DNA from: Porphyridium purpureum
Lineage: Eukaryota; Rhodophyta; Bangiophyceae; Porphyridiales; Porphyridiaceae
Direction of reading: 5' to 3'
Assembly: GCA_008690995.1 (NCBI GenBank)
Contig: VRMN01000002.1
Coordinates: forward strand, 1,116,001 to 1,180,000
DNA: 64,000 nucleotides
The position numbers were made by a program, and so were the translations under genes. Under the pieces are notes generated by a model. It had not been told where the DNA came from and made no database searches. It saw nothing but the letters and a program-made list of their open reading frames with translations. Shown in pieces: positions 9,249 to 59,778 of this stretch. Each line of letters begins with the position of its first letter. The stretch's first letter is position 1.

Positions 9249-10361
9249 TCAGACCCGTACGACAAGCTTGTTGGCCAACGCCAGCGCGTGGTGGAGCCAC
9301 AGCGGCGTGTGTTTGTGAAGCAGCGGGCCTAGTAGAGAAAGCTTGACCCAAGGAACAGAGAACAGCCAGCGCTCGACGGCTAGCAGCGCATGCGCCGCGC
9401 GCGGAAGCACCACGGCATTGTACGTGGAAACGTGCACGCCATTCACCACAATATCTCCCGACGCCGTGTGCGGGTTGAACAACCCCTTTGCAGTCACACT
9501 GTGCGTAACCTTGACCACGTGAGCGCGAAGCGCCGAGCGGTCAGAGCCGCTGTCTGACATGACGGTCATCTCGTCTCCCACGCGAATGTGATGCGCTGCC
9601 ACGAGGCTGCCGCCATTCACGTACGCCAGATGATTCCGACTCAATGTGATTTCAGCCCCAGACGATAAGTCAATGCGCACGTACCGGTCCGACACAGCCA
9701 GCGGATCCTTATGACCCCAAAACACAACCGGGGAGAATACCTGCTCAATCGCTTCCTCATCGGTGCTTTGCTGGGCGCCGTTGGCGACAGCGCGCACGAG
9801 GACGCGGTCTCCCACCGCAAGTTCGGCCATGCTCTTGATCTGACCGCTCTCCAACTGCACTCGTGCTGAACCCGGAAAGCAATCCTCGGCCGCCGCTGGC
9901 GGGTCTGTCTCGAGAACGCAATTCACTTCGGTGAACTTGACGGACTCTGCCTGGTTCACTGGGGACCTGCTATCCTCCAGATTATAGCACGTATCGGAGC
10001 TAACCTCAGTCTCACCTGTAAGGATGAAGCCCGTGAGTTCGGGATCACCGTCACAATCCGTGTTTCTCCACACTGTGAAGTACAAACGGAGGCGATTCAT
10101 ACTTGCAGAGGTTCCCGAGCACGATACATCCCACTCATACGACTTGCTGATATTCTCGTCGAACAAACACGTCATCGATTTCGGCGTCTCACAAAGCTCG
10201 GCGCCCGTGCAGTTCTCGCCACTGTACAAACACCACGAAAACGTGGTTCCCTGCGCATGCACCGGACTTCCCACCAACGCCACCATCGACAGCAGCAGCA
10301 GCGTCAGCAACAGCGGTGGCAGCGGCGAGACCGCCGGACCGTAACCTGTACGCGCTCCCAT
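9249..10361 (-). CDS. Secreted cysteine-rich protein with C-terminal Hog (Hedgehog-type Hint) autoprocessing domain
   Basis: The 370-residue protein starts with a signal peptide (hydrophobic run PPLLLTLLLLSMVALVG, likely cleavage after VHA). A domain of about 120 residues with eight cysteines (44-148) follows. Cys161 opens a Hint domain. CFPGSARVQLESG at 161-173 is almost the opening of the Hedgehog C-terminal domain. GDRVLV, LSRNHLAYV (equivalent of the TxxH block, with Ser for Thr) and GLFNPHTASGDIVVNGVHVSTY follow in Hedgehog order. A hydrophobic tail of about 55 residues ends the protein. In Hedgehog this domain cleaves itself off and transfers sterol to the N-terminal part. The residue before Cys is Asp here rather than Gly. 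The N-terminal domain is not one I recognise. Autoprocessing is inferred from the family. Confidence 0.9.
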   Translation of the reverse strand: MGARTGYGPAVSPLPPLLLTLLLLSMVALVGSPVHAQGTTFSWCLYSGENCTGAELCETPKSMTCLFDENISKSYEWDVSCSGTSASMNRLRLYFTVWRNTDCDGDPELTGFILTGETEVSSDTCYNLEDSRSPVNQAESVKFTEVNCVLETDPPAAAEDCFPGSARVQLESGQIKSMAELAVGDRVLVRAVANGAQQSTDEEAIEQVFSPVVFWGHKDPLAVSDRYVRIDLSSGAEITLSRNHLAYVNGGSLVAAHHIRVGDEMTVMSDSGSDRSALRAHVVKVTHSVTAKGLFNPHTASGDIVVNGVHVSTYNAVVLPRAAHALLAVERWLFSVPWVKLSLLGPLLHKHTPLWLHHALALANKLVVRV

Positions 10362-13850: not shown

Positions 13851-15293
13851 AGTAGCTCAAGTGGGACGGCGAAGAAGTGCGTTGACAATTGCAGCGTAAT
13901 TTTTTTTATTTTTAAAATTCGAGTGCGCGAGGTGCGGCTTCGCTGCGCATTTTCCTCTGCTCTTTCCAACGTGAACCCCTTTCAACTCCTCACACCGCCG
14001 AGTAAGGCTGCCACCTGCCGAGGGATACAGGCTCGCGAGTCTGTGCGAGCATCAGGGTCGGTGACTCTGATTTAAGCCTCTTGTTTCGAGACTGCGCCTT
14101 TGGCGTCCCGCCCGAGTGGGACGTATGCACCTGCTCGCATAATGACTTCCCTTGCGGCGAGGGAAAACCGCCCAACATCAATTTGTGTGAGAGCGGTCCG
14201 CGTGCCGTCCGAGCGACCATGTGGTTGGACATGACGCGTTCTCACGCGCTCGAGAGGGCAGACGTCAAGCATGAGGAGGACGAGACTCATTCATGACTCT
14301 AGCGCTACGTTGCCGCGTACCCTACCCTCCCTCCGTTCTTGCTCGCCCGGCGAGGGCGCTTTGCGGAGAGTGCAGCGCAGGGTTGGAAGAGAGGAACGAG
14401 AAAAATGAAACGGGAGGTGCAGGTGGGTATCTTTAGTGCTTATGCTGCAGCGAAACGCGGCGGACTCGAATGCTGCTTGTACAGGCACACCGGTACGTGG
14501 CGACCTCGAATGGTGGCATCGTGGCGGCCACGTGGGGAGCCTTTCTGCGCGTACTAACTTGAATGCAGCATCAAGCTATGCTCGCGTCCGGACGCGAGTC
14601 TGGAGTGATTTGGAAACACAATGAGATGCTGGGCAGGACAACGTTATGCATTTAGGCCATTTTGGGCATGGATAGCCAAGCCGGCGCCGTGCCGCCACGG
14701 CGTGGAAGAGCTTGACACTGAAGACGGAGCGAAAAGATGAAGCTAGCCCTCGCTTCGAATCGCGTCTCGTTCTGAATTCGAAGTTGGTGACTGTTTTCAT
14801 GATGGCTTCTTGCGCACATAGTACATCACACGGTCTCTAGATGGACCACTCGCGCATGTCCTCTTTCTGTTTTGGCAGGATGAATCTGCAGACTTCATCA
14901 CTTTCGACCGTACGGCTCCCCCGTTGAAGTTGACGGCCTACGTCCGTGCCGGTGACTACTGGAAGGTGTTTGGTTTGTTCCTGTTCCGTACGCCGTCTTT
15001 TTGGTTTCCAAAACTGTTTTGGATGAATCTGTTCGTACCGTCCAGGTGTGACTGCGAACGAGGTGAATCCATGCCCGGATTCGAAACCATGCGAACCTAT
15101 CTGTCTTCGTGGCTCCCTTCTTTGCCGCTCTGCGCGCGGAAGACGCAAAGTCGGCTGTTCGAGCTGTATATAGGGGGGATGTTGCAGCTGCCCTGCAGTC
15201 AGTCGGAGCCGGCAGACCTGGGGCATGTGTGGAAAAGCTTCGGTACGTATGGGGAAGCAGTGGCATCTAGGACTCACTTCTTCTGAGAAGAAC
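13851..15293. other. Intergenic region, 1.4 kb
   Basis: Contains the 3' flank of the phosphate carrier gene with an AT-rich run near 13900 and the promoter of the first 14-Cys paralogue, with a TATA-like box at 15167. Short frames on both strands look non-coding. No RNA gene recognised. Confidence 0.55.
15167..15172 (+). promoter_or_regulatory. TATA-like box
   Basis: TATATA followed by a G run, 122 bp upstream of the start codon of the first 14-Cys secreted paralogue. The second paralogue has no equally good TATA at the same place, so the two promoters seem to differ. Confidence 0.4.
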
Positions 15294-16553
15294 ATGGCGA
15301 AGATGACCAAAACGACTAAGATGTCTACCGTGTGCTTCGTCGCTGTAGTGATCGCACTGTACGCACGAGCATCGAGTGCGGTGCCGGACGCAGGCTTCCA
15401 TATCTCGGATGCCGACTTTCGATTTCGCGAAGACGGCTTACCTGAACTACATGAAGGCATGAAGCTCTTTTCCATGCGTGTTGAGGAGCTGCCAGTTCTC
15501 AGTTCTGTGCGGGCCGAACATGAGTGTGACGCTGTGATGGAGCATGGGCAGTATGCTGACATTCTTGCCATTAAGGTGAGAACGGTCGCTCCTCAGGCCG
15601 GAAAAGAAGTATTGCTCGATATGTTTTCGCAGGCTTCACGCGTTCTGGGACGCGAGGACCTTGTGTGTGTGGAAGCGAGCCTGATGCACAAGCACGTTGA
15701 CGAGCTTGCGTTTCCAGGACTGAAGATGATGAGTGAGGAGGAGCAGTACGCCGAGTTGGTGCGCGTACTGGATGAGATGCGCCCCGACGTAAAGCAATTT
15801 CAGACCGAGCGCATGGAGCTGCCTGAGAGTGATGTATCCGAGCGTCTTGCGTGGTGGTCTTACGTTCCGACGGGAGAGACGTGGAACCCGAGTCCGTCGG
15901 TGAAGGCGCAGAAACCGATTGGATGGCCGGCATCGTTCAAGAAGTACTACGACGAGGGAGACGTCCTGAAGAAATGTCCGTGGGTTTGGGACAGGATCCT
16001 GCGCGACAACTGGTACCGCACGTCAAGCCCGGTCAAGTGCCCCGGAGAGTATGCAAGCCTTTCCGGATACGAGAATTTGAAGGGCTGTCGCATTCCACTC
16101 TCAAGGCCGTTTGGCTCTACAGATGAGAAGCATCGCTTCTCGAAGACTGGTATTCGGTGTGACGTATGGCAGTATGCACACGTGAAGTGCAGCATTACTT
16201 CTTTGCAGAGCTTCAACAAGGGGTGTCAAACTGTCGAGCAATACCACGAGTATGCCCTCTTCTATATCAAGAACCATATGATTGGTTCGTGGCAGAACTA
16301 CGGGTACGACCCCGAGGGCATTTGGTGGGGCGTGGTGTCCCAGCACTGCAACACCAGGAGCAAGTATTACGGGGGCCTGGATATGTGCGACTACTGGGTC
16401 AGCAACCGCGGCGCATGGCACGTTTACTGCGACTGGGCGCACGATCTGGTGGGCGGAGAGGTATCGCTCGGCGATGACTGCCTGATGACGAATGGCATTT
16501 CGTGCTGGAGGCAGCAGCAGTGCTCGCTCAACTACCTCAAGGGCGCCTACTAA
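15294..16553 (+). CDS. Secreted 14-cysteine protein of unknown family, paralogue A
   Basis: The protein has 419 residues with a clear signal peptide (MSTVCFVAVVIALYARASSA, cleavage before VPDAG). The mature protein has an N-terminal half of mixed helical character (DADFRFRED, MFSQASRVLGREDLVC) with two cysteines. The C-terminal half holds twelve more and is rich in Trp and Tyr (WYRTSSPVKCPGEY, SWQNYGYDPEGIWWG, SNRGAWHVYCDWAHD). I do not recognise the family and propose no enzymatic role. The in-frame ATG at 15294 is chosen because it directly precedes the signal peptide. Paralogue B lies 3.2 kb downstream in the same orientation; all 14 mature cysteines are conserved between them. An extracellular or cell-wall location is inferred from the signal peptide. 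An AATAAA lies near 16704. Confidence 0.88.
   Translation: MAKMTKTTKMSTVCFVAVVIALYARASSAVPDAGFHISDADFRFREDGLPELHEGMKLFSMRVEELPVLSSVRAEHECDAVMEHGQYADILAIKVRTVAPQAGKEVLLDMFSQASRVLGREDLVCVEASLMHKHVDELAFPGLKMMSEEEQYAELVRVLDEMRPDVKQFQTERMELPESDVSERLAWWSYVPTGETWNPSPSVKAQKPIGWPASFKKYYDEGDVLKKCPWVWDRILRDNWYRTSSPVKCPGEYASLSGYENLKGCRIPLSRPFGSTDEKHRFSKTGIRCDVWQYAHVKCSITSLQSFNKGCQTVEQYHEYALFYIKNHMIGSWQNYGYDPEGIWWGVVSQHCNTRSKYYGGLDMCDYWVSNRGAWHVYCDWAHDLVGGEVSLGDDCLMTNGISCWRQQQCSLNYLKGAY
15852..15998 (+). repeat. Identical tract shared with paralogue B (copy 1)
   Basis: These 147 bp are identical, third codon positions included, to 19053-19199 in paralogue B, while the sequence on both sides differs at many synonymous sites. 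This is the signature expected of recent gene conversion. Confidence 0.9.
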
Positions 16554-18509: not shown

Positions 18510-19751
18510 ATGTTAGTGAAGGTGTTGGCGGTGTGCATCGCCGTCGTAGCGATCGCGCTGCGCGCCCACGTGGCAAGTGCGGTGCCGGACGCAGGCTTCC
18601 GTGTCTCGGATGCCGACTTTCGATTTCGCGAGAACGGCTTTCCTGAACTGCATGAAGGTATGAAGCTCTTCTCCATGCGCGTGGAGGAGCTGCCAACTCT
18701 TGGCTCCGAGCTCCATGAAGATGAGTGTGATGCTCAAATGGACCATGGGCAGTATGCCGATGCCCTTGCCATCAAGGTCAAGACTCTTGCTCCTGAAGCC
18801 GGGAAAGACGTTTTGCTGGACATGTTTTCACAGGCTTCGCGAGTACTGGGACGCGAAGACCTAATTTGCGTGAAGTCGAGCCTGCTGCACAAGCACATTG
18901 ACGAGCTGGCCTTTCCAGGACTGAAGATGATGAGCGAGGAAGAGCGACGCGCTGAGATGCTGCGCGTGCTGGATGAGATCCGTCCCGACGTGAAGCATTT
19001 TAAGACCGAGCGCATGGAGCTGCCTGAGAGTGCTACATCCGAGCGTCTTGCATGGTGGTCTTACGTTCCGACGGGAGAGACGTGGAACCCGAGTCCGTCG
19101 GTGAAGGCGCAGAAACCGATTGGATGGCCGGCATCGTTCAAGAAGTACTACGACGAGGGAGACGTCCTGAAGAAATGTCCGTGGGTTTGGGACAGGATCT
19201 TACACGACAACTGGTACCGCACGTCAAGCCCGGTCAAGTGCCCGGGAGAGTATGGAAGTCTCTCTGGCTATGGGAATCTGAAGGGTTGCCGCATTCCATT
19301 TACGATGCCGTTTGGCTCTACAAATGATCACCACCGCTTCTCGAAGACTGGCATCCGTTGCGACCTTTGGCAGTTTGCGCATATGAAGTGCCAGGCGGAT
19401 GCTCCTTACAGCAACAATGGCTGCCAGACGGTCCAAGACTACCACGAACACAGCCTGTACTACATTATGAACCACATGATTGGATCGTGGCAGAACTACG
19501 GGTACGACCCCGAGGGCATCTGGTGGGGCGTGGTTTCGCAACACTGCAACGCTGCGAGCCAGTATTACAGGGGCCTGGATATGTGCGATTACTGGGTCAG
19601 CAACCGCGGCGCATGGCACGTGTACTGCGACTGGGCGCACGATCTGGTGGGCGGAGAGGTGTCGCTCGGCGATGACTGCCTTATGACGACTGGCATTTCG
19701 TGCTGGAGGCAGCAGCAGTGCTCGTTCAACTACCTCGTAGCTGCCTATTAA
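18510..19751 (+). CDS. Secreted 14-cysteine protein of unknown family, paralogue B
   Basis: The protein has 413 residues and is closely related to paralogue A over its whole length. The signal peptide differs (MLVKVLAVCIAVVAIALRAHVASA) but cleavage is again before VPDAGF. All 14 mature cysteines, the Trp/Tyr-rich C-terminal half and the terminal tyrosine are kept. The most variable part is the stretch around residues 280-310, where A has SITSLQSFNKGC and B has QADAPYSNNGC. The protein lacks the extra N-terminal Met region of A. Paralogue B arose by tandem duplication in the same orientation; a 147-bp tract has since been homogenised. Function unknown; secreted by its signal peptide. Confidence 0.88.
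   Translation: MLVKVLAVCIAVVAIALRAHVASAVPDAGFRVSDADFRFRENGFPELHEGMKLFSMRVEELPTLGSELHEDECDAQMDHGQYADALAIKVKTLAPEAGKDVLLDMFSQASRVLGREDLICVKSSLLHKHIDELAFPGLKMMSEEERRAEMLRVLDEIRPDVKHFKTERMELPESATSERLAWWSYVPTGETWNPSPSVKAQKPIGWPASFKKYYDEGDVLKKCPWVWDRILHDNWYRTSSPVKCPGEYGSLSGYGNLKGCRIPFTMPFGSTNDHHRFSKTGIRCDLWQFAHMKCQADAPYSNNGCQTVQDYHEHSLYYIMNHMIGSWQNYGYDPEGIWWGVVSQHCNAASQYYRGLDMCDYWVSNRGAWHVYCDWAHDLVGGEVSLGDDCLMTTGISCWRQQQCSFNYLVAAY
19053..19199 (+). repeat. Identical tract shared with paralogue A (copy 2)
   Basis: Partner of 15852-15998, offset 3201 bp. It ends where A reads CTGCGCGAC and B TTACACGAC, four differences in nine bases. Identity then resumes for about 35 bp. Confidence 0.9.
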
Positions 19752-45105: not shown

Positions 45106-47862
45106 CTACTGCTCCTTGGTCCAGTTCAAGAGCGAGTGCACATTCCCTTCCATTTGCGCCGCTGGAGTCCTCACCTGGAAACGCAGTCGCCCGTCGTACA
45201 AATATTCGTGCAGCTGAGAGATAGAGCGCACGCCCAGATCCTGGAAGCCGTGCCTCACGCCCGCCACCAGATACGGCATAAAGCGCTTGATGCTTCCACG
45301 GTCAGCCACAGCGCCACTGACGCCCTGCGCGACACGGACGCGCTCATCCTCACTGAAATACCGCGACGCGCTTCCCTTTTTCATCGCCTCAAGGCTCCCC
45401 ATGCCGCGGTACTTCTTCAGCCGTACGCCGTCTTTGTAGAAATACTCACCGGGCGATTCTTCCGTACCCGCGAGCATGCTGCCCATCATGACGGCCGATG
45501 CGCCTACACACAGCGCCTTGATGATATGCCCTGTGGACGAAATACCACCGTCTGCAATCACGGGCACGCCAAGCTCCCGCGCGTAGCTTGCAACCTGGTA
45601 CACGGCCGTGGCTTGTGGGCGCCCGCAGGCCATCACTTCCTGTGTGGTACAAATACTGTTGTGAACTATGTTGTTTGCGGCGATAAAGGAGTGTGTTGCA
45701 CAGCCAACCTCGATGTCCCACACTTCCATTGGCTCGGCTACAGGCTCGATGGAAAGAATCGTTCCGTACATAAAATCTTCCGTGCAACGGGTGTCAGACG
45801 CCGTTCTGACAGCGTATCCTTGAGCCAGCTTATCGAGCGATGCCCGTTTCAAATTCTCAACGCTTACCGGCACTTGTCGCACCCCGTACGACTTTTGCAG
45901 TGTCATGCAGCACCAGCTAAACAATTCAATGACTCCAGGAGCAGTGGACACTAACCAATCCCTGCCAGGGCGCTCCTTGATGCCGTCGGAATCGACCAAG
46001 CCATCGTAAATACCCTGAGCGTATTCTTTGTTTCTGCACCACATGTTTGCGGGTAAATGCTTTTCAGTCTTTTTCCCGAATGAGCCGAAGAGTTCGGCCG
46101 TACGCGAGCAGTAGAAGTGAACGCTCTTCACATTCTTGCCTTGCTCATCATCTTGAATGACCACAGGCTTCTCAAACACACTCTCAATGCAGTCTTTCAG
46201 CTTTTCAGCCACCACGTCTTCGTGTTTGGCAAAGTACCAGGACACGCGACCCTGGAAACTATTCTTATATTTCACAAGAGCGGCGCATCCACTTCCAAGG
46301 AACGTCCCAAAAATGTATCCCAAATCGTACCCACTGTGCAGGATTCGAGTCATGGCAAAGGTGTTATTCGCGGTCATGAGGAGGTCATCATCCTCGCATT
46401 GAGATACGTCAAGCGCCAGCTCAACTGAAAAGTCTTCAGGGAGATCAAACTCGATGTCACTTGGCATCAACGTAAACGTGCTCTTCGTGTCGCAAGTTCC
46501 GACGGCGGTCCAACCAATTTCCTCTTGCTTGTTCTGCATGATCGGGGCAACGCTAGTCTTCGAAGCGTTTGGCGCGTCAGCGCGGTTTGCCATCCAGAAC
46601 TTGTGATCACTCGTAACATAGATAGGATGAGGCCACTTGGAAAACGTGGCTTTGACCACTGCTTTCGTGCCACGGTTGACAACCGCTGTGACGCGCACGG
46701 CTTTGCCCTTCATGTTGATGACGCGCTCTCCAACTTCAATGCTGGAAATGGCGCGGTAACTTCCGTCGGCCATCAACACGGGAGTCTCCGGACCAAAACA
46801 CCCGCAGCCCATGCCAATGCGCAGCGCGTCGACGCCCATCTTAATCAAGTGGTGCGCCTGGTTGCGCGTGACAACATTCCCCCCAATAACTTCAAGCTCC
46901 GGATGCTTTTCCTTGATGTAGTGGATCATGTCAATCTGGTAAATTGAGTCGCCCTGCGACGAGTCGAGCACCACCACATCCAGCCCGGTCTCCACCAGCG
47001 CGTCCAATCGTTCGCGGTCCTCTGGGCGGGTACCAATTGCGGCACCGCACAGTAAGCGTTTCCCTGATGCATCCTTCGATGTGTTTGGATAAATCTTCTG
47101 CTTCTTTAGATCGGTGCGCGCGACCAGGCCGACAAGCTCGCCCTGCTTGTTGACAATGGGCAATTTGCCCTTCTTGGACTCCTTCAGAATCGCGTGTGCC
47201 TCCTCGAGTGTGAGGCCTTGCTGACCGGTCACAAGTTCAGAGGTCATGCACTCCGACACAAGCACATTGTCGATATTGCGCACAAACTCCACGTCGCGGT
47301 TGGTCACAATGCCGAGCAATTTGCTACCCATCTGCCCACTTGCGGTAATTGGGATACCGCTAAAGCCGTACTTTTTCTTGATCGCCAGGGCATCCGCCAC
47401 GGTCGAGTCGGGGCTGAGCGTCTTTGGGTCTGTGATGAAGCCGTTCTCGTACCGCTTCACCCGGTCGACCTCCTTTTGTTGTTCGCGAACGGAGCAGTTG
47501 TAATGAATAATGCCCAAGCCGCCCTGCAGTGCCATGTTAATAGCCATTTCACTTTCCGTGACCGTATCCATCGGTGAGGAAATCATTGGCGCGTTCAGCC
47601 AGAGCTTGCGCGTGACGCGGCATCGTGTGTCGACGTCGTCTGCGGCAAAGTAGATATGACCTGGCAGCAACACAAAGTCATTATACGCGTACCCAGACAC
47701 GCCTTGCGAGAAGAGGTCCTGCCCCGCCACGCCATCCTGCAGCTTGAACAGCTCGTCGTCAGCAAAGTAGGGCGCGAGATTCTTAAAGCCCGCGCGTATC
47801 GATCCGCCAGAGTACAACCCAGGCGCAGCCGACGCGCCGGTCTCCTTTCCGTTCATACTCAT
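45106..47862 (-). CDS. IMPDH: Inosine-5'-monophosphate dehydrogenase precursor containing an intein
   Basis: IMPDH converts IMP to XMP, the committed step of guanine nucleotide synthesis. The 918-residue precursor is the enzyme interrupted by an in-frame intein at residues 355-735; the joined exteins would be 537 residues, normal for a eukaryotic IMPDH. The N-extein has the barrel start ([37 protein letters not shown]), two CBS domains (about 115-235) and [11 protein letters not shown]. Extein sequence stops at ALRIGMGCG and resumes with [15 protein letters not shown], so the catalytic Cys is the third residue after the intein. The C-extein continues with [15 protein letters not shown] and [12 protein letters not shown]. 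Met 47862 precedes the conserved core by about 25 residues; the open frame goes on to 48144 without a better start. Activity would require protein splicing. Confidence 0.96.
45658..46800 (-). mobile_element. Intein (Hint splicing domain plus LAGLIDADG homing-endonuclease domain) in IMPDH
   Basis: The element spans 1143 bp, 381 residues. Splicing block A is [20 protein letters not shown] with the nucleophile Cys1. Block B is YVTSDHKFW (Thr63, His66 of the intein). Block F is MEVWDIEVG, and block G is [12 protein letters not shown] with the C-terminal Asn381 preceded by His; the +1 residue is Ser. All residues needed for class 1 splicing are seen. Between the blocks lies a two-motif LAGLIDADG domain: [12 protein letters not shown] (intein 160-171) and [11 protein letters not shown] ending at 273. 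The first motif has Ser where the metal-binding Asp is expected, so endonuclease activity is doubtful. It is inserted at the Gly-Ser bond of the IMPDH active-site loop. Codon use and GC look like those of the host gene, which suggests long residence. Confidence 0.95.
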
Positions 47863-48718
47863 CTTCACGCCGCACTCCGTTCGACCCCTCCCCTCGCTTC
47901 CAGCACCGCCACCACCACACCCGACCCAAACGCTGCGCGTTCCCCTTGTGCCTTGCGTCCAGACTTGCCCATGCTCCCGCACGCACGACTTGCCCCCCAC
48001 CCGCATTGAGCGCACGGCGGCGGTCCACGAAGCTAAAAACCAAACGAGAAAAGAGAAAAAGAAAACCCCTCCAAAATCATAAAACGCACACCTTTTAGTA
48101 CGAACCCCTTGTCGCACCGCAACGTGCCCGTCCGCACAAACCATTAACCCGATAAACCGCGACCGCGCGTCGTTAGGCTCAAAGGCGTAGCTGTACCTCC
48201 TCCCTTTCTGTTGCGCGCCCTGATTTTTTGGTGTGCTTTTAGTATGTTTTGCTCGTCGAGGTACTGTTTGTCCATAACTTTACGTTGCCAACAAAACGAC
48301 GACACAAACACACACACACACACGTGCTCACACGCACGTGCTCAACCACTTCACACGCACCAAACTCAAAAAAGAACACCAACAGTGAAAACGCCGCGTG
48401 CATCAAAGGGCGGTGCTTTTTTGTCGTTTTGGGCTCTATCTAACAAAACACACCCGATTTGGGATTCGTCACCGTACGTGTCCGATTTGGGTTACGGTCC
48501 TTGGTTGTGTTCCTTTCGGTCGCCTCATTTTTTGGGTTGAATGGAGAAAGGTTTTGATTTTCAAAGTTTTGGTAGTAGGCGCGTGCAGTGTGAAGATGAG
48601 CGTGTGCGTGTGCGGGGATGGTGCGAGGAGAGGAGAGACGAGAAGAGAGGGAGTGGGAGAGCAAGTGGGAGAGGGGCAGGGAGGGGAACGGCTTGGGTGG
48701 GTTAGAGCGCAGGGGAGG
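47863..48718. other. Divergent promoter region, 860 bp
   Basis: Between IMPDH and the pentapeptide/Hog gene. It is C-rich next to IMPDH and G-rich next to the Hog gene, and holds a TGTACCTC octamer at 48192-48199 and a CA repeat at 48308-48322. An in-frame ATG at 48596 could extend the Hog protein. Confidence 0.5.
48308..48322. repeat. CA microsatellite
   Basis: Seven CA units in the IMPDH/Hog divergent region. Confidence 0.85.
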
Positions 48719-51700
48719 ATGGTGGTGCGCGATGGCGCGCGGACGCGGGTGCTGCCCGCGATGGTGGTGGGCATCGTGGGGGTTGTGCTGCTGAGCATGC
48801 ACGGCGTGCGCGCGCAGTGCACGCCGGAGGATGAGTCGAACCCGTCGTTTGAATGCGAGGGGGTCATGTTTGCGCCGGGATTGCTGGTGGAGGACGCAGA
48901 CGCGACCGACGCGGATTTCCGAAACGCGTCGTTCTTGATTGCGCAGTTCATTCGCACCACGCTGGATGATGCGACGTTTGAGGACGCCACCATGATTGAC
49001 TTTGTGTTCAATGGTGAGACACCCGAGGGCGGCACCACGTCCGCGCAGCGCATTGATTTCTCCAAAGTTACCGCCCAGAGTGTGAATATCCTATCGTACG
49101 ATCTGCGAGGCATGTCGTTGGTGAACGCGTCCTCCACCACTTGGCGTATGAGCAACGTCGACGTGCGCAATGGCATGTTCCGCAACTACTCGGCGGTTGG
49201 AACAGGCATCGTCACAAATGCGGACTTCTCGGACAGTGATTGGGTTCTTGCAGAGATTGAGACGGTGCAGTACACGAATACAACGTGGACGGACGCCAAC
49301 TGTTTGGCGTCGACGTGGAGCATCGTAGAGTTTGTTGACACAGACCTTTCTGGCGTGCGCTACGGCAGCTCGCAGCACAAGCTCGGAAACTGGCGCAACG
49401 TCGTGTCCTCGGGCATGACGGGTCCCAGTATGCTCATTCAGAATATGCAGTTTGAGAATGTCGAACTGACGGACTTTCAGATCAACGGGGCGACTATCCA
49501 AAGTGGGAACGGCGGCTTTATTATGGACTCGCGCTTTTCAATGGGTACTTTCACGGGCACACTTTTCCAGAACATCGTTATTTCAAACTCGGACTTTATG
49601 AGCGTCGGCTTTTCGAACGCACGCTTCTTCGGAACTGATTGGATTAATTGCACATTCACGGATGGAAGCTGGGACGATCTGCTCATGAATAGTGGATCTT
49701 TTGATCCTGACTCCAGGATTGTGGACGTCACGGGCACGAACGTGCGGATACGGTTGCCTGCGAACCTGACCGGTGTGGAGTTTACTGGCGTGACATTTGA
49801 GCTCGAAACAGACGCGCTCTTTACCAGGGCCATATTTTCGGGCAGCGATTCAACGCTGTCTGGCTCGGATATGACCGGCGCGAATTTTGACCGCATCGAA
49901 ACCATGGGTGCCACCCGGCTTATCGTGAGGGACGCGGATCTGACCAACGCGACATTCCGTGGAGCGACATTGCGCGAGTCCGACTTTCGAGGTTCCACGG
50001 TTGACGGCGCCAGCTTTCGCGGGGTTGCAGCCAACGCTTCATCTTTCCGAGAAATCATGTCCTCGTCGAGGCGTGCCGACTTTTCGGCCTTGCCAACGGG
50101 CCCGAACATGGTTCGCGTGACTGATTTGCGGAACGCAGATTTCACAGATTCGTCGTTGAACGCCGCGCGATTTGTATCTGCTGACTTGCGATCTGCAAGC
50201 TTTGGAAATGCTGACTTAACATCTGCAGACTTCCGCTTTGCGCGACTTGATGGCACCAATTTTGGCGGTGCCATTTTGGAAGACGCCGACTTTTCGATGG
50301 CCACTGGCCTCGGCGAGCCATGTGAAGACTTCTGTAGCGGGCGGGGCTGCAAGTGCTCAACCATTCCGCAGTGTGCGAACGGTGAAGAACCTTCTCGCGG
50401 CTCAGATTGCTCCAATTCCAACCTGTCAAATTATACATATGTCGGTGATGACTTCACAGGCACTGACTTTTCGTCTACGGAGTTCGTCTTGATTGGAATG
50501 GATGCGGTACTGCTTGATAATGCCACCTTTGAGGGCGCCGTGTTGACGGATTCTTTCTGGCTCGGCGCGTCTGCGACAGATGTCGACATGCGATCGATCT
50601 CGGCGACAAACTTTGTTCTAGCGGAAACGGACGCGTCTCGGGCGCAAATGCAGAGAGCAACGTTCCAAGGTATGTCCGAGTTGGTCGACAGCAACTTGAC
50701 GAATGCGCAAATGAACGGAATGGTGCTTGCGGGGAATTTCACTGTACGCAACGCGGACATGACCAATGCGGATCTATCGCTGAGTGTACGATTCGGCTCG
50801 GCGAATATTTCTTTCGTGGACGTCATCGCATCAGGCGCCATCTTTGATCGTGTGTCCTTTTTTGACTCCTACTTTCTGCGCTGCGACTTTACGAACGGCG
50901 TGCTCACGTCGGCGTCGCTTGCTGGCTCGCTCTTTGAGGACGCCACGTTCGAAGAATGCTCGTTCGCTGGTGCTATCATGAACGACATTACAACGCTGCG
51001 GGTTAGCTTTAATGGCTCGCGAATGGACGGTATTGACTTTTCGGACTCGAATATTGTGGGAGCAGTCTTTCCGCGCAGCCAGGATTTCGTTTTCACATCG
51101 CTGCGGGGCGCGTCTTTCAATCGGGCTCAGCTTGACGCCGTCAACTTCAACGACGCCGATTTGTCTCTTGCAAGTTTTTCGGGTGCGAATATCACCGACA
51201 CGTGCACGTTCAATCGCGCCAACTGCACCGGAATCTCGGGTGTCGACGGCGGGTGTGAGGGTTTTTGTTTGCAGCGCGGTTGCTTCTGCGCACCACCGAC
51301 GCCTACGCCAACGCCATCACCGACGCCGGTTCCGACGAGGAACCCGTCGGACACGCCAACACCCTCGCCGACACCAACGCCAACGCCCACACCGACTCCG
51401 ACGCCTTCGGGACCTACGGCTTCGCCGTCGGTCATGCCATCAAGGACGCCGAGTCCCGCGCCTTCGCCAACCTCGGAACCCTGTTTCCCGGCGAGCGCGA
51501 TGGTGGAGCTGGAAGATGGCCGCACTCTACGCATGGACCAGTTAGAATATGGCGACCGCGTGCGAGTGAGCCCGGCGGGGACGAAGGATGCGTTCAGCTC
51601 GGTGTACTTTTTCGGGCATCGGGACGCCACACGAACGGCAGAGTATGTCCAGCTTGACTTGGAGGATGGCAGCACACTTCGCGTGTCGGCTCTGCACTTC

Positions 51701-52057
51701 GTTTATGTAGATGGCGGCGTGCGAAGAGTCCGTGCAGACGCCGTGCAGGTAGGCGCGAAAATGCTAGCGGCAGATGGCGCTCTGAAGCGCGTGGTGGCTC
51801 TTCCTGGGCGCGTACAGGAGCGCGGTGTGTTCAATCCGCACACAGAGCACGGCGATATATTCGTAGATGGTGTCAAAGCGTCTTCATACACGGCGCTAGT
51901 GCACCCGATGTTGGCGCACATGCTGTTGGCGCCAGTTCGATTGGCTTACCGCGTGTGTGAGCTGCGGCTCCTTGGAAACTTGTTCCACATGGATTTGCCG
52001 GAAGGGGTGCGCACGATTGCGGCGCCTTTGCTCAGCGCTTTGAAGGAAAGTTCGTAG
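48719..52057 (+). CDS. Secreted pentapeptide-repeat protein with Pro/Thr stalk and C-terminal Hog (Hedgehog-type Hint) domain
   Basis: A 1112-residue protein. A signal peptide ([21 protein letters not shown]) is followed by about 800 residues of pentapeptide-like repeats with the A(D/N)(L/F)xx rhythm, such as [20 protein letters not shown] and [20 protein letters not shown]. Such repeats form a right-handed quadrilateral beta-helix. Two matching cysteine knots interrupt and end the repeats: [12 protein letters not shown] (about 535) and [12 protein letters not shown] (846-857). A Pro/Thr stalk of about 65 residues leads to Cys922, the start of the Hint domain: [31 protein letters not shown] and [34 protein letters not shown] follows, like the end of the Hedgehog Hint domain. 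Pro precedes the Cys nucleophile and Ser replaces Thr of TxxH. An upstream in-frame ATG (48596) would put 41 residues before the signal peptide and is less likely. Confidence 0.92.
51290..51480 (+). repeat. Degenerate repeat coding for the Pro/Thr stalk
   Basis: ACGCC, ACNCC and related words code for alternating Thr-Pro and Ser-Pro between the repeat domain and the Hog domain. Probably an O-glycosylated extended linker. Confidence 0.85.
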
Positions 52058-58521: not shown

Positions 58522-59778
58522 TTAATTTGGCAGGATAAACTGGAGGGCAGCAGTTATGGCATCAGCGAGGCGTCGCCAGTCCTGCTCCAAATCCTCGACG
58601 GACTCTCCATTTTGGGTGGTAAGCATAGGACGCACGGCCTTGCGCGCTGCCCCGCCAAACGCCACCCCGCCGAATTGGGCAGCGGTCAGAAGCTTGCTAC
58701 GCTGTTGTAAGAGCACGTGCGTATGTTCATTGGTTCCGCCGGCGAGCTGCACGAAGCCTGGAAGACCCAACGAGTGAACGCCGTCCAAAGCTTTCTCTGC
58801 CAGTCGGACGGATGCATGACTAGTCCCCTTACCCAAATCGCCGCTCATCGGTCGGCCATCTGTTTGCCATATCAGCTCCACATGAGACGCCGCGTCGTGT
58901 CCGAGAACCAAATGCATTTTCCGCATCTCGCCGGTCAGATCGGGCATGTCCGGAAACGAAATTGCAACCAATTTCAGCTCGCGAAGGAGCGTGTGAGTGG
59001 TATCGTTTTCTGTCATTGCCACGGCGCCTGCACGGTCCCAAAAGCGTGCGAATGCTGCCACGCCTTGAGGCCGCGTGTGAATTTCAATCGCGTCCACTTT
59101 CATTCGAGAAATCAGCTCGACCAGCTGCTCGATCGGCCGCGTGTAATGCACAGCATCAATGATTCCGAGAGGACAAACAGGAATGCAACGGCCACAACCA
59201 TAGCACTTCGCACGATCAACCCCCTGGAGCCCAATGGCATCGGCAGGACAACTGATTTCGCACGGCCGCGGGCAATCGGATGGACAGCGGTCCGGGTCGA
59301 ACACAGCCTTCCTAAAATGCGGGTCCTCGTCATCATTTACGGAAACCATGAGGATCGGCTGTCTTTGCGAGAGCTCGAACCGGTCCAGCACGCTATTTGC
59401 TGTATCTATTCCCTGTCGTACAGCCCGTACGACCGCCTCATCTGCGGCACAGTCAATGCAGTCCACCCCTGCAAGCGTGTACACGAGAGCGAGGTTGCGC
59501 ACCAGCGGAACATCCTCAGTTGATGCGCCGCATATGAGCTTGACCCAGTTCTGCCGCTTCAGTGACACCAAGCCAACTGATCCACGTGACGAAGCGCGTT
59601 GCAACACACATCGCAACGCGTCCTTATCTGCAGAAACGCGTGTGTCGAGTATCACTATGCTGTCCTCTCGCATATGGGGAAAGGAACGGGCTTTGCGAAC
59701 CGTACATCCCACTCTACTATCTACCACACGAGGCCGCTTCCACACCGCGAGATAGCCCGCATTCACAAACGCCAGCAT
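58522..59778 (-). CDS. ldpA: LdpA-like two-cluster ferredoxin protein, probably plastid
   Basis: LdpA of cyanobacteria is an iron-sulfur protein that senses quinone redox state and adjusts circadian period. The 418-residue protein matches this family: NWVKLICGASTEDVPLVRNL, YTLAGVDCIDCAADEAVVRA, MVSVNDDEDPHFRKA, then cysteine groups CPSDCPRPCEISCP (about 164-177) and CYGCGRCIPVCP (about 193-204), fit for two [4Fe-4S] clusters. The C-terminal half contains LGLPGFVQLAGGTNEHTH. The N-terminus MLAFVNAGYLAVWKRPR has the AFV element of red-algal plastid transit peptides, so plastid import is likely. A gene of cyanobacterial descent is inferred. The gene is convergent with the BAR gene, 81 bp apart. 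Confidence 0.88.
   Translation of the reverse strand: MLAFVNAGYLAVWKRPRVVDSRVGCTVRKARSFPHMREDSIVILDTRVSADKDALRCVLQRASSRGSVGLVSLKRQNWVKLICGASTEDVPLVRNLALVYTLAGVDCIDCAADEAVVRAVRQGIDTANSVLDRFELSQRQPILMVSVNDDEDPHFRKAVFDPDRCPSDCPRPCEISCPADAIGLQGVDRAKCYGCGRCIPVCPLGIIDAVHYTRPIEQLVELISRMKVDAIEIHTRPQGVAAFARFWDRAGAVAMTENDTTHTLLRELKLVAISFPDMPDLTGEMRKMHLVLGHDAASHVELIWQTDGRPMSGDLGKGTSHASVRLAEKALDGVHSLGLPGFVQLAGGTNEHTHVLLQQRSKLLTAAQFGGVAFGGAARKAVRPMLTTQNGESVEDLEQDWRRLADAITAALQFILPN

Follow-up and report, generated by a model that had tools for sequence, protein, structure and literature searches.

A predicted class-1 intein in the active-site loop of a nuclear IMP dehydrogenase of the red alga Porphyridium purpureum

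An insert next to the catalytic cysteine

What is the 381-residue insert that separates the two halves of a red algal IMP dehydrogenase (IMPDH) within its active-site loop, and how would an enzyme that carries it be made? The gene lies in a 64,000-nt stretch of the Porphyridium purpureum assembly GCA_008690995.1 (VRMN01000002.1, 1,116,001-1,180,000, forward strand; hereafter the window), which is C1:1116001-1180000 of the searched genome (22.16 Mb, 46 contigs). On its minus strand, to which all coordinates of this gene refer, a single open frame of 1012 aa (48144-45106) encodes an IMPDH whose frame is broken between GMGCG and SICTTQEV, at the coordinates and in the frame given by the original prediction, a note made from the sequence alone. 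The insert (45658-46800, residues 449-829 of the frame) runs from Cys1 to Asn381 and, judged by its motifs and predicted fold, is an intein. Our interpretation, which we hold with high confidence, is that the locus encodes a ~101-kDa nuclear IMPDH precursor with a class-1 intein that is spliced, was acquired horizontally and is probably fixed, its endonuclease having lost one catalytic Asp.

The sequences on either side are those of a complete enzyme. Two stretches of the 1012-aa frame match TIGR01302 IMP_dehydrog with 611 bits (cut-off 481.5), and Pfam PF00478 and CBS domains are matched as well. The N-extein (46801-47862) extends from the Met of MSMNGKETG, where the 918-aa database copy P0003 also begins, to GMGCG, the open frame going on upstream to 48144; the C-extein (45109-45657) extends from Ser+1 of SICTTQEV to the end of the protein, with the stop codon at 45106-45108. 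The interrupted bond is the Gly|Ser of the active-site loop, two residues ahead of the catalytic Cys (at +3), which we take to be residue 331 of human IMPDH2. In an alignment with IMPDH1 (7rfh) the two halves join at Gly|Ser, the Ser being residue 378, while in that with IMPDH2 (1b3o) the first half ends at 329, which puts the bond at 328|329.

The insert itself has the hallmarks of a class-1 intein, namely Cys1, a block B TxxH, a C-terminal HN and Ser+1, set in frame between complete exteins of a conserved host protein. Its N-terminal HINT splicing part (46441-46800, approximately residues 1-120) contains Cys1 and Thr63-x-x-His66 and shows strands in the predicted model, and its C-terminal splicing part (45658-45813, residues 330-381) contains Asp362, Cys367, His370, His380 and Asn381. 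Thr63 and His66 are conserved in 110/110 inteins whose ends could be bounded and in 131/131 aligned inteins with a letter there, the window's included. Blocks A, B, F and G are thus present, as had been noted from the sequence; those of the endonuclease can be recognized as well, one catalytic residue being changed. The predicted model has a HINT fold, and among full-length folds it comes closest to VMA inteins. The Pfam profile Hom_end_hint recognizes the insert alone (33.1 bits, cut-off 32.1) and falls just under its cut-off on the whole frame (31.1 bits). Chance resemblance can be excluded, because 253 database proteins match the intein at E <= 1e-3, its own copy included. Hedgehog-type Hint domains have the HINT fold in common with it; they differ from the algal insert, which is followed by a full C-extein and scores 15.5 bits against PF01079 (cut-off 29.7), and an identity as a Hint domain was rejected on these two grounds.

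An enzyme that never contains the insert, either because the stretch is removed as RNA or because it is an assembly artefact or a contaminant, is conceivable on paper, since one GT-AG pair, which begins one base ahead of the first junction and ends two bases past the second, preserves the frame. Removal between these points would take the conserved Ser with it. There are three such pairs in all at distances of up to 15 bases from the junctions; the other two add residues, and none yields the exact sequence of IMPDH. The insert is moreover conserved at the protein level with related inteins, the genes around it are eukaryotic and its exteins are red algal; the published assembly of P. purpureum CCMP1328, if it is the same genome, is described as a hybrid of Illumina and Nanopore reads in the part of the report consulted (PMC6811547). 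We regard this explanation as extremely improbable.

A site shared with bacterial IMPDHs and with GMP reductases

Among the 120 matches listed to the joined extein, the closest are Erythrolobus australicus (76.1% identity), P0243 (76.0%) and Timspurckia oligopyrenoides (75.3%), the two named species being Porphyridiaceae. A quick extein tree with one support value places the window's enzyme within a set whose 13 rows are red algal or unnamed (support 99), in keeping, together with the eukaryotic flanking genes, with the nuclear algal IMPDH originally proposed. In the same tree, IMPDHs of Vampirovibrio, Melainabacteria and cyanobacteria adjoin those of red algae and animals, with weak inner support.

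None of the 119 other proteins among these 120 matches has an intein at the site, the motif being uninterrupted, and an intein domain appears in the Pfam annotation of the window's own protein alone. The motif is likewise uninterrupted in all 230 proteins listed, the window's excluded, from two protein searches. A search of IMPDHs for insertions at the Gly-Ser bond, as the original prediction advised, finds empty sites in seven named red algae (Erythrolobus, Timspurckia, Gracilaria, Rhodochaete, two Galdieria and Rhodosorus) and inteins in bacterial IMPDHs and in GMP reductases. The prediction knew of no intein at this site; inteins at the same bond are in fact common in those enzymes.

Among the 120 matches listed to the intein, 118 of the 119 others carry an IMPDH domain; the remaining one, P0080, is an adenylosuccinate synthetase, and this related intein is the only relative outside the IMPDH family in that set. 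Boundaries could be set for 110 inteins (not for 10 of the 120), with Gly at -1 in 109 and Ser at +1 in all 110; the insertion in P0008 is shifted by one residue, and that in P0080 lies in another enzyme. In prokaryotes, 34 of 58 loci match residues 1-381 of the intein, all 34 with Gly and Ser-x-Cys borders (33 found with a stricter pattern, L043 on visual inspection), two of them in archaeal metagenome-assembled genomes. Being homologous over the full length and placed at the same Gly|Ser bond, the algal intein is a same-site allele of these elements. Bacterial IMPDH inteins (for example from Ktedonobacterales, Gemmataceae, Chromatiaceae and Actinomarinicola) resemble it in their bond, in Cys1, HN and Ser+1, in a length that is most often 377 aa and in a LAGLIDADG domain; the inteins of the prokaryote loci are 25-37% identical to it, 12 of them forming a separate clade.

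A second set, with which the algal intein groups, comes from metagenomes and viral contigs and interrupts the same bond in a paralogous enzyme. Its hosts are ~730 aa long, lack CBS domains and are in part encoded on viral contigs that also bear phage-type genes. Ten were tested: five score above the cut-off of NF003470 and one above that of NF003966, both GMP reductase models (6/10 in all), and four above neither. All 12 viral-contig loci match residues 1-381, some being near-copies, and Ser-x-Cys follows in 11 and SGGLC in L029. Every one of ten open reading frames (ORFs) taken from four viral loci has a PHROGs match at 1e-3, a weak one in two cases. On one viral contig, the phage-type gene for DNA polymerase III (L018:108-3020, plus strand) that lies near the CBS-less, intein-bearing gene itself matches Intein_splicing in part, below the cut-off (E 1.2e-5). 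Scans of the viral contigs with two alignments gave 12 loci (A1) and 1 locus (A2, on a contig already found with A1), and scans of the same contigs with P0002, P0027, P0004, P0008 and the eIF2-gamma intein described below found no close viral relative of the algal intein; among phage records, nothing matched it at 1e-5.

The intein trees (quick, n=82; careful, n=41) place the window's intein as sister to that of P0049 and then P0004, with 100/99 in the careful tree. There it belongs to a group of 18 (100/99) that comprises these three, 13 CBS-less hosts and the full-length IMPDHs P0008 and P0027. Grouping the window, P0049 and P0004 inteins with the 12 bacterial IMPDH inteins was rejected by an approximately unbiased (AU) test (p 0.00016), in which the set of 16 labelled as GMP-reductase type includes the full-length IMPDHs P0008 and P0027 as well as P0050, which lies outside the group. 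The hosts tell a different story: between the window and P0049 the inteins are 66.3% identical and the exteins 46.4%, whereas between P0004 and P0049 the values are 51.9% and 62.6%, and the exteins of P0004 and P0049 form a separate lineage beside, and outside the group of, eukaryotic and cyanobacterial-type IMPDHs. P0049, on a 13.2-kb ENA contig, carries a natural small relative, a 188-aa mini-intein at the same IMPDH site from which the endonuclease has been deleted.

The empty sites of red algal relatives and the conflict between intein and host trees make horizontal entry from a source near that of P0049 the simplest reading, and the intein seems to have been acquired from outside red algae. 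Vertical inheritance would require that it was ancestral in red algae and lost in the sampled relatives; such loss is possible in principle, and trees do not prove the direction of a transfer. Against it stand the 119 intein-free proteins, with the seven named red algae among them, and the nearest intein, whose host IMPDH is from outside red algae and which resembles the algal one more than the two hosts resemble each other. We give this history very little credence.

Among known systems, the IMPDH-1 split intein of the gp41-1 toolbox set is a metagenomic element (PMC7090010, PMC11766414) that is named after IMPDH and shares Cys1 and Ser+1 with the algal intein; it comes in pieces of 106 + 42 residues (PMC11766414), whereas the algal intein is one open frame. 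Nuclear inteins of fungi and other eukaryotes (Prp8, VMA1, RNA polymerase, GLT, CHS, ThrRS, eIF5B) are alike in being nuclear and in conserved hosts, and differ in host gene. A 2018 survey, in the parts consulted, describes nuclear inteins as rare and mostly fungal; its Table 1, confined to the commonest inteins, lists no IMPDH intein and no nuclear intein of Rhodophyta, and the word "inosine" does not occur in its text (PMC5784728). A literature search by titles and the beginnings of abstracts, largely outside subscription journals, found no earlier report of an algal IMPDH intein, and one may exist in print. The algal intein thus appears to join a known family at the IMPDH/GMP reductase site, in a host lineage for which that search found no report.

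A probably inactive endonuclease and an enzyme that probably depends on splicing

The LAGLIDADG homing-endonuclease domain (45826-46353, approximately residues 150-325) has both motifs, IFGTFLGSG and YDGLVDSDG, and an I-DmoI chain matches residues 154-344 of the intein model. A catalytic Asp stands in one motif only. In the first, Ser170 (46291-46293), just before the last Gly, stands at the position expected for the first catalytic Asp, and by its motif it would be the counterpart of PI-SceI Asp218. Among the 131 aligned inteins with a letter at this position, 123 have Asp, 4 Asn, 3 Gly and 1, the alga alone, Ser; Asp is found in 76/81 after thinning at 70% identity. The second catalytic residue, Asp272 (45985-45987), is kept (D in 130/131), as is Lys247, conserved in 131/131; in a weak alignment, within its second stretch, which by itself is not significant, they face PI-SceI 326 and 301, respectively. 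Both catalytic Asp residues of PI-SceI are reportedly required for cleavage in mutant work; with one of them gone, homing has probably been lost, and the endonuclease of the algal intein is probably inactive and the intein immobile. The "full intein" of the original prediction is therefore complete in the fold of its endonuclease and incomplete in its catalytic residues.

Could the endonuclease nevertheless still cut intein-free alleles and be selected for doing so? Its frame is open and its fold confidently predicted, Lys247 and Asp272 are kept, and just 4/37 conserved endonuclease columns are altered. The intein's GC content at third codon positions is 0.598 and that of the exteins 0.715 and 0.710, a difference that a recent arrival might explain; it is a weak sign, because ten other ORFs of the window span 0.587-0.712. 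Set against these points, Ser at the counterpart of an Asp said to be needed for cleavage occurs in 0/130 others, and we consider continued mobility unlikely.

As for splicing, which we think very probable from the residues retained, Cys1 would attack the preceding Gly bond in an N-to-S shift, the N-extein would be transferred to Ser+1, and Asn381 would cyclise with the assistance of His380. Once the exteins were joined, the IMPDH would be a normal enzyme of 58 kDa and the intein a separate protein of 42 kDa. By calculation the precursor has 100.7, the intein 42.4 and the spliced enzyme 58.4 kDa, the last two being close to the ~41-kDa intein and ~57-kDa product expected earlier. No second IMPDH gene was detected in the genome, the other match covering query residues 237-350 at 30% identity (E 2.7e-4), in the CBS region only. 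Since the host protein lies within red algae and is the only IMPDH detected, GTP supply may fairly be taken to depend on splicing, as the original prediction proposed. Inefficient splicing in a gene heading for loss, while salvage supplied the guanine nucleotides, would be consistent with three unusual residues at conserved splicing columns, D366G among them; decay would be expected in an unused gene, yet the IMPDH-conserved extein residues and all splicing nucleophiles are kept, and we judge this scenario highly improbable.

We therefore favor a horizontal gain at the Gly|Ser site common to IMPDH and GMP reductase that would have been followed by fixation, with splicing nucleophiles intact and one of the two endonuclease catalytic Asp residues gone. 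The intein would be kept in place by the rarity of precise loss and by the cost of failed splicing, which would abolish the only detected IMPDH. Several observations weigh against parts of this account. Among the intein profiles, Hom_end_hint is over its cut-off on the isolated insert and under it on the whole frame; Intein_splicing (24.1 vs 35.8 bits) and NCBI intein_Nterm (17.6 vs 24.5) stay under their curated cut-offs. Three of 30 conserved splicing columns are altered (G71A, D72N, D366G; median 0), which might make splicing slow. The first catalytic Asp is also absent in 7/130 other inteins (Asn 4, Gly 3), and the position is thus not untouchable. Endonuclease decay is modest: with 4/37 altered columns the intein shares ranks 6 to 8 among 81 (median 1), and the heavy decay that had been expected is not borne out. 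Finally, the group in the AU test was chosen after the quick tree, the trees are unrooted, and the genome search for IMPDH is blind to introns and scores the best candidates only.

A second nuclear intein, neighboring genes and the range of nuclear inteins

Hom_end_hint gave three matches over the genome, the IMPDH intein and an eIF2-gamma gene over the cut-off and a third, on C14, that overlaps a Hint match. Intein_splicing found the IMPDH intein only, under its cut-off, and LAGLIDADG_3 and intein_Cterm found nothing, which points to models that are insensitive in this genome, where further inteins may exist. The eIF2-gamma match (C44:549057-549407) lies within a 925-aa frame (eIF2_C E 4e-33; eIF2 subunit 3 chains on both flanks). 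The putative second nuclear intein (C44:549045-550277, plus strand; L015:3046-4278) has 411 aa, sits in the GTPase G3 box between FVD and CPGHD and ends in VVAHN|C. By motif, both catalytic Asp residues are replaced (LWLGAG, LVDSHG). With a best local match to the IMPDH intein of E 0.017, it seems not to be a copy of that element, and a literature search found no report of it. That both nuclear inteins, with endonuclease residues lost and splicing kept, now splice conditionally and so couple GTP supply and translation start to the state of the cell is a thought we hold to be very doubtful, together with its possible example, a redox dependence through Cys1 and the Cys at -2 of the IMPDH N-extein.

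Ten ORFs around the intein gene were scanned: they encode a flippase, a DEAH-type helicase, a Hint protein, a protein kinase, an ABC transporter, an aconitase, a CS-domain protein, an amino-acid transporter and LdpA, and one has no match. Hedgehog-type Hint domains (PF01079) occur in the window at 9249-10361 (minus) and 48398-52057 (plus), one of them behind pentapeptide repeats and adjoining the intein gene; genome-wide there are 33 matches, 32 over the family cut-off, some being pieces of one gene. The LdpA-like protein (58522-59778, minus), nuclear and with an iron-sulphur domain, belongs to a family known from cyanobacterial circadian work. Two very similar genes lying near each other (15225-16553 and 18510-19751, plus) encode proteins with a signal-like start by eye, the second being without a Pfam match at 1e-5.

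A nuclear red algal intein in a host gene outside Table 1 of the 2018 survey, as far as that source was consulted (PMC5784728), would extend the range of nuclear inteins, and the mismatch between intein and host trees points to an IMPDH/GMP-reductase-site intein that was transferred between distant hosts. One site presents three states of the endonuclease: unaltered at its conserved columns in P0004 (0/37), changed at a catalytic residue in the alga and deleted in P0049. As P. purpureum is culturable and transformable according to abstracts, the control of an essential pathway by a fixed intein would be directly testable in this organism.
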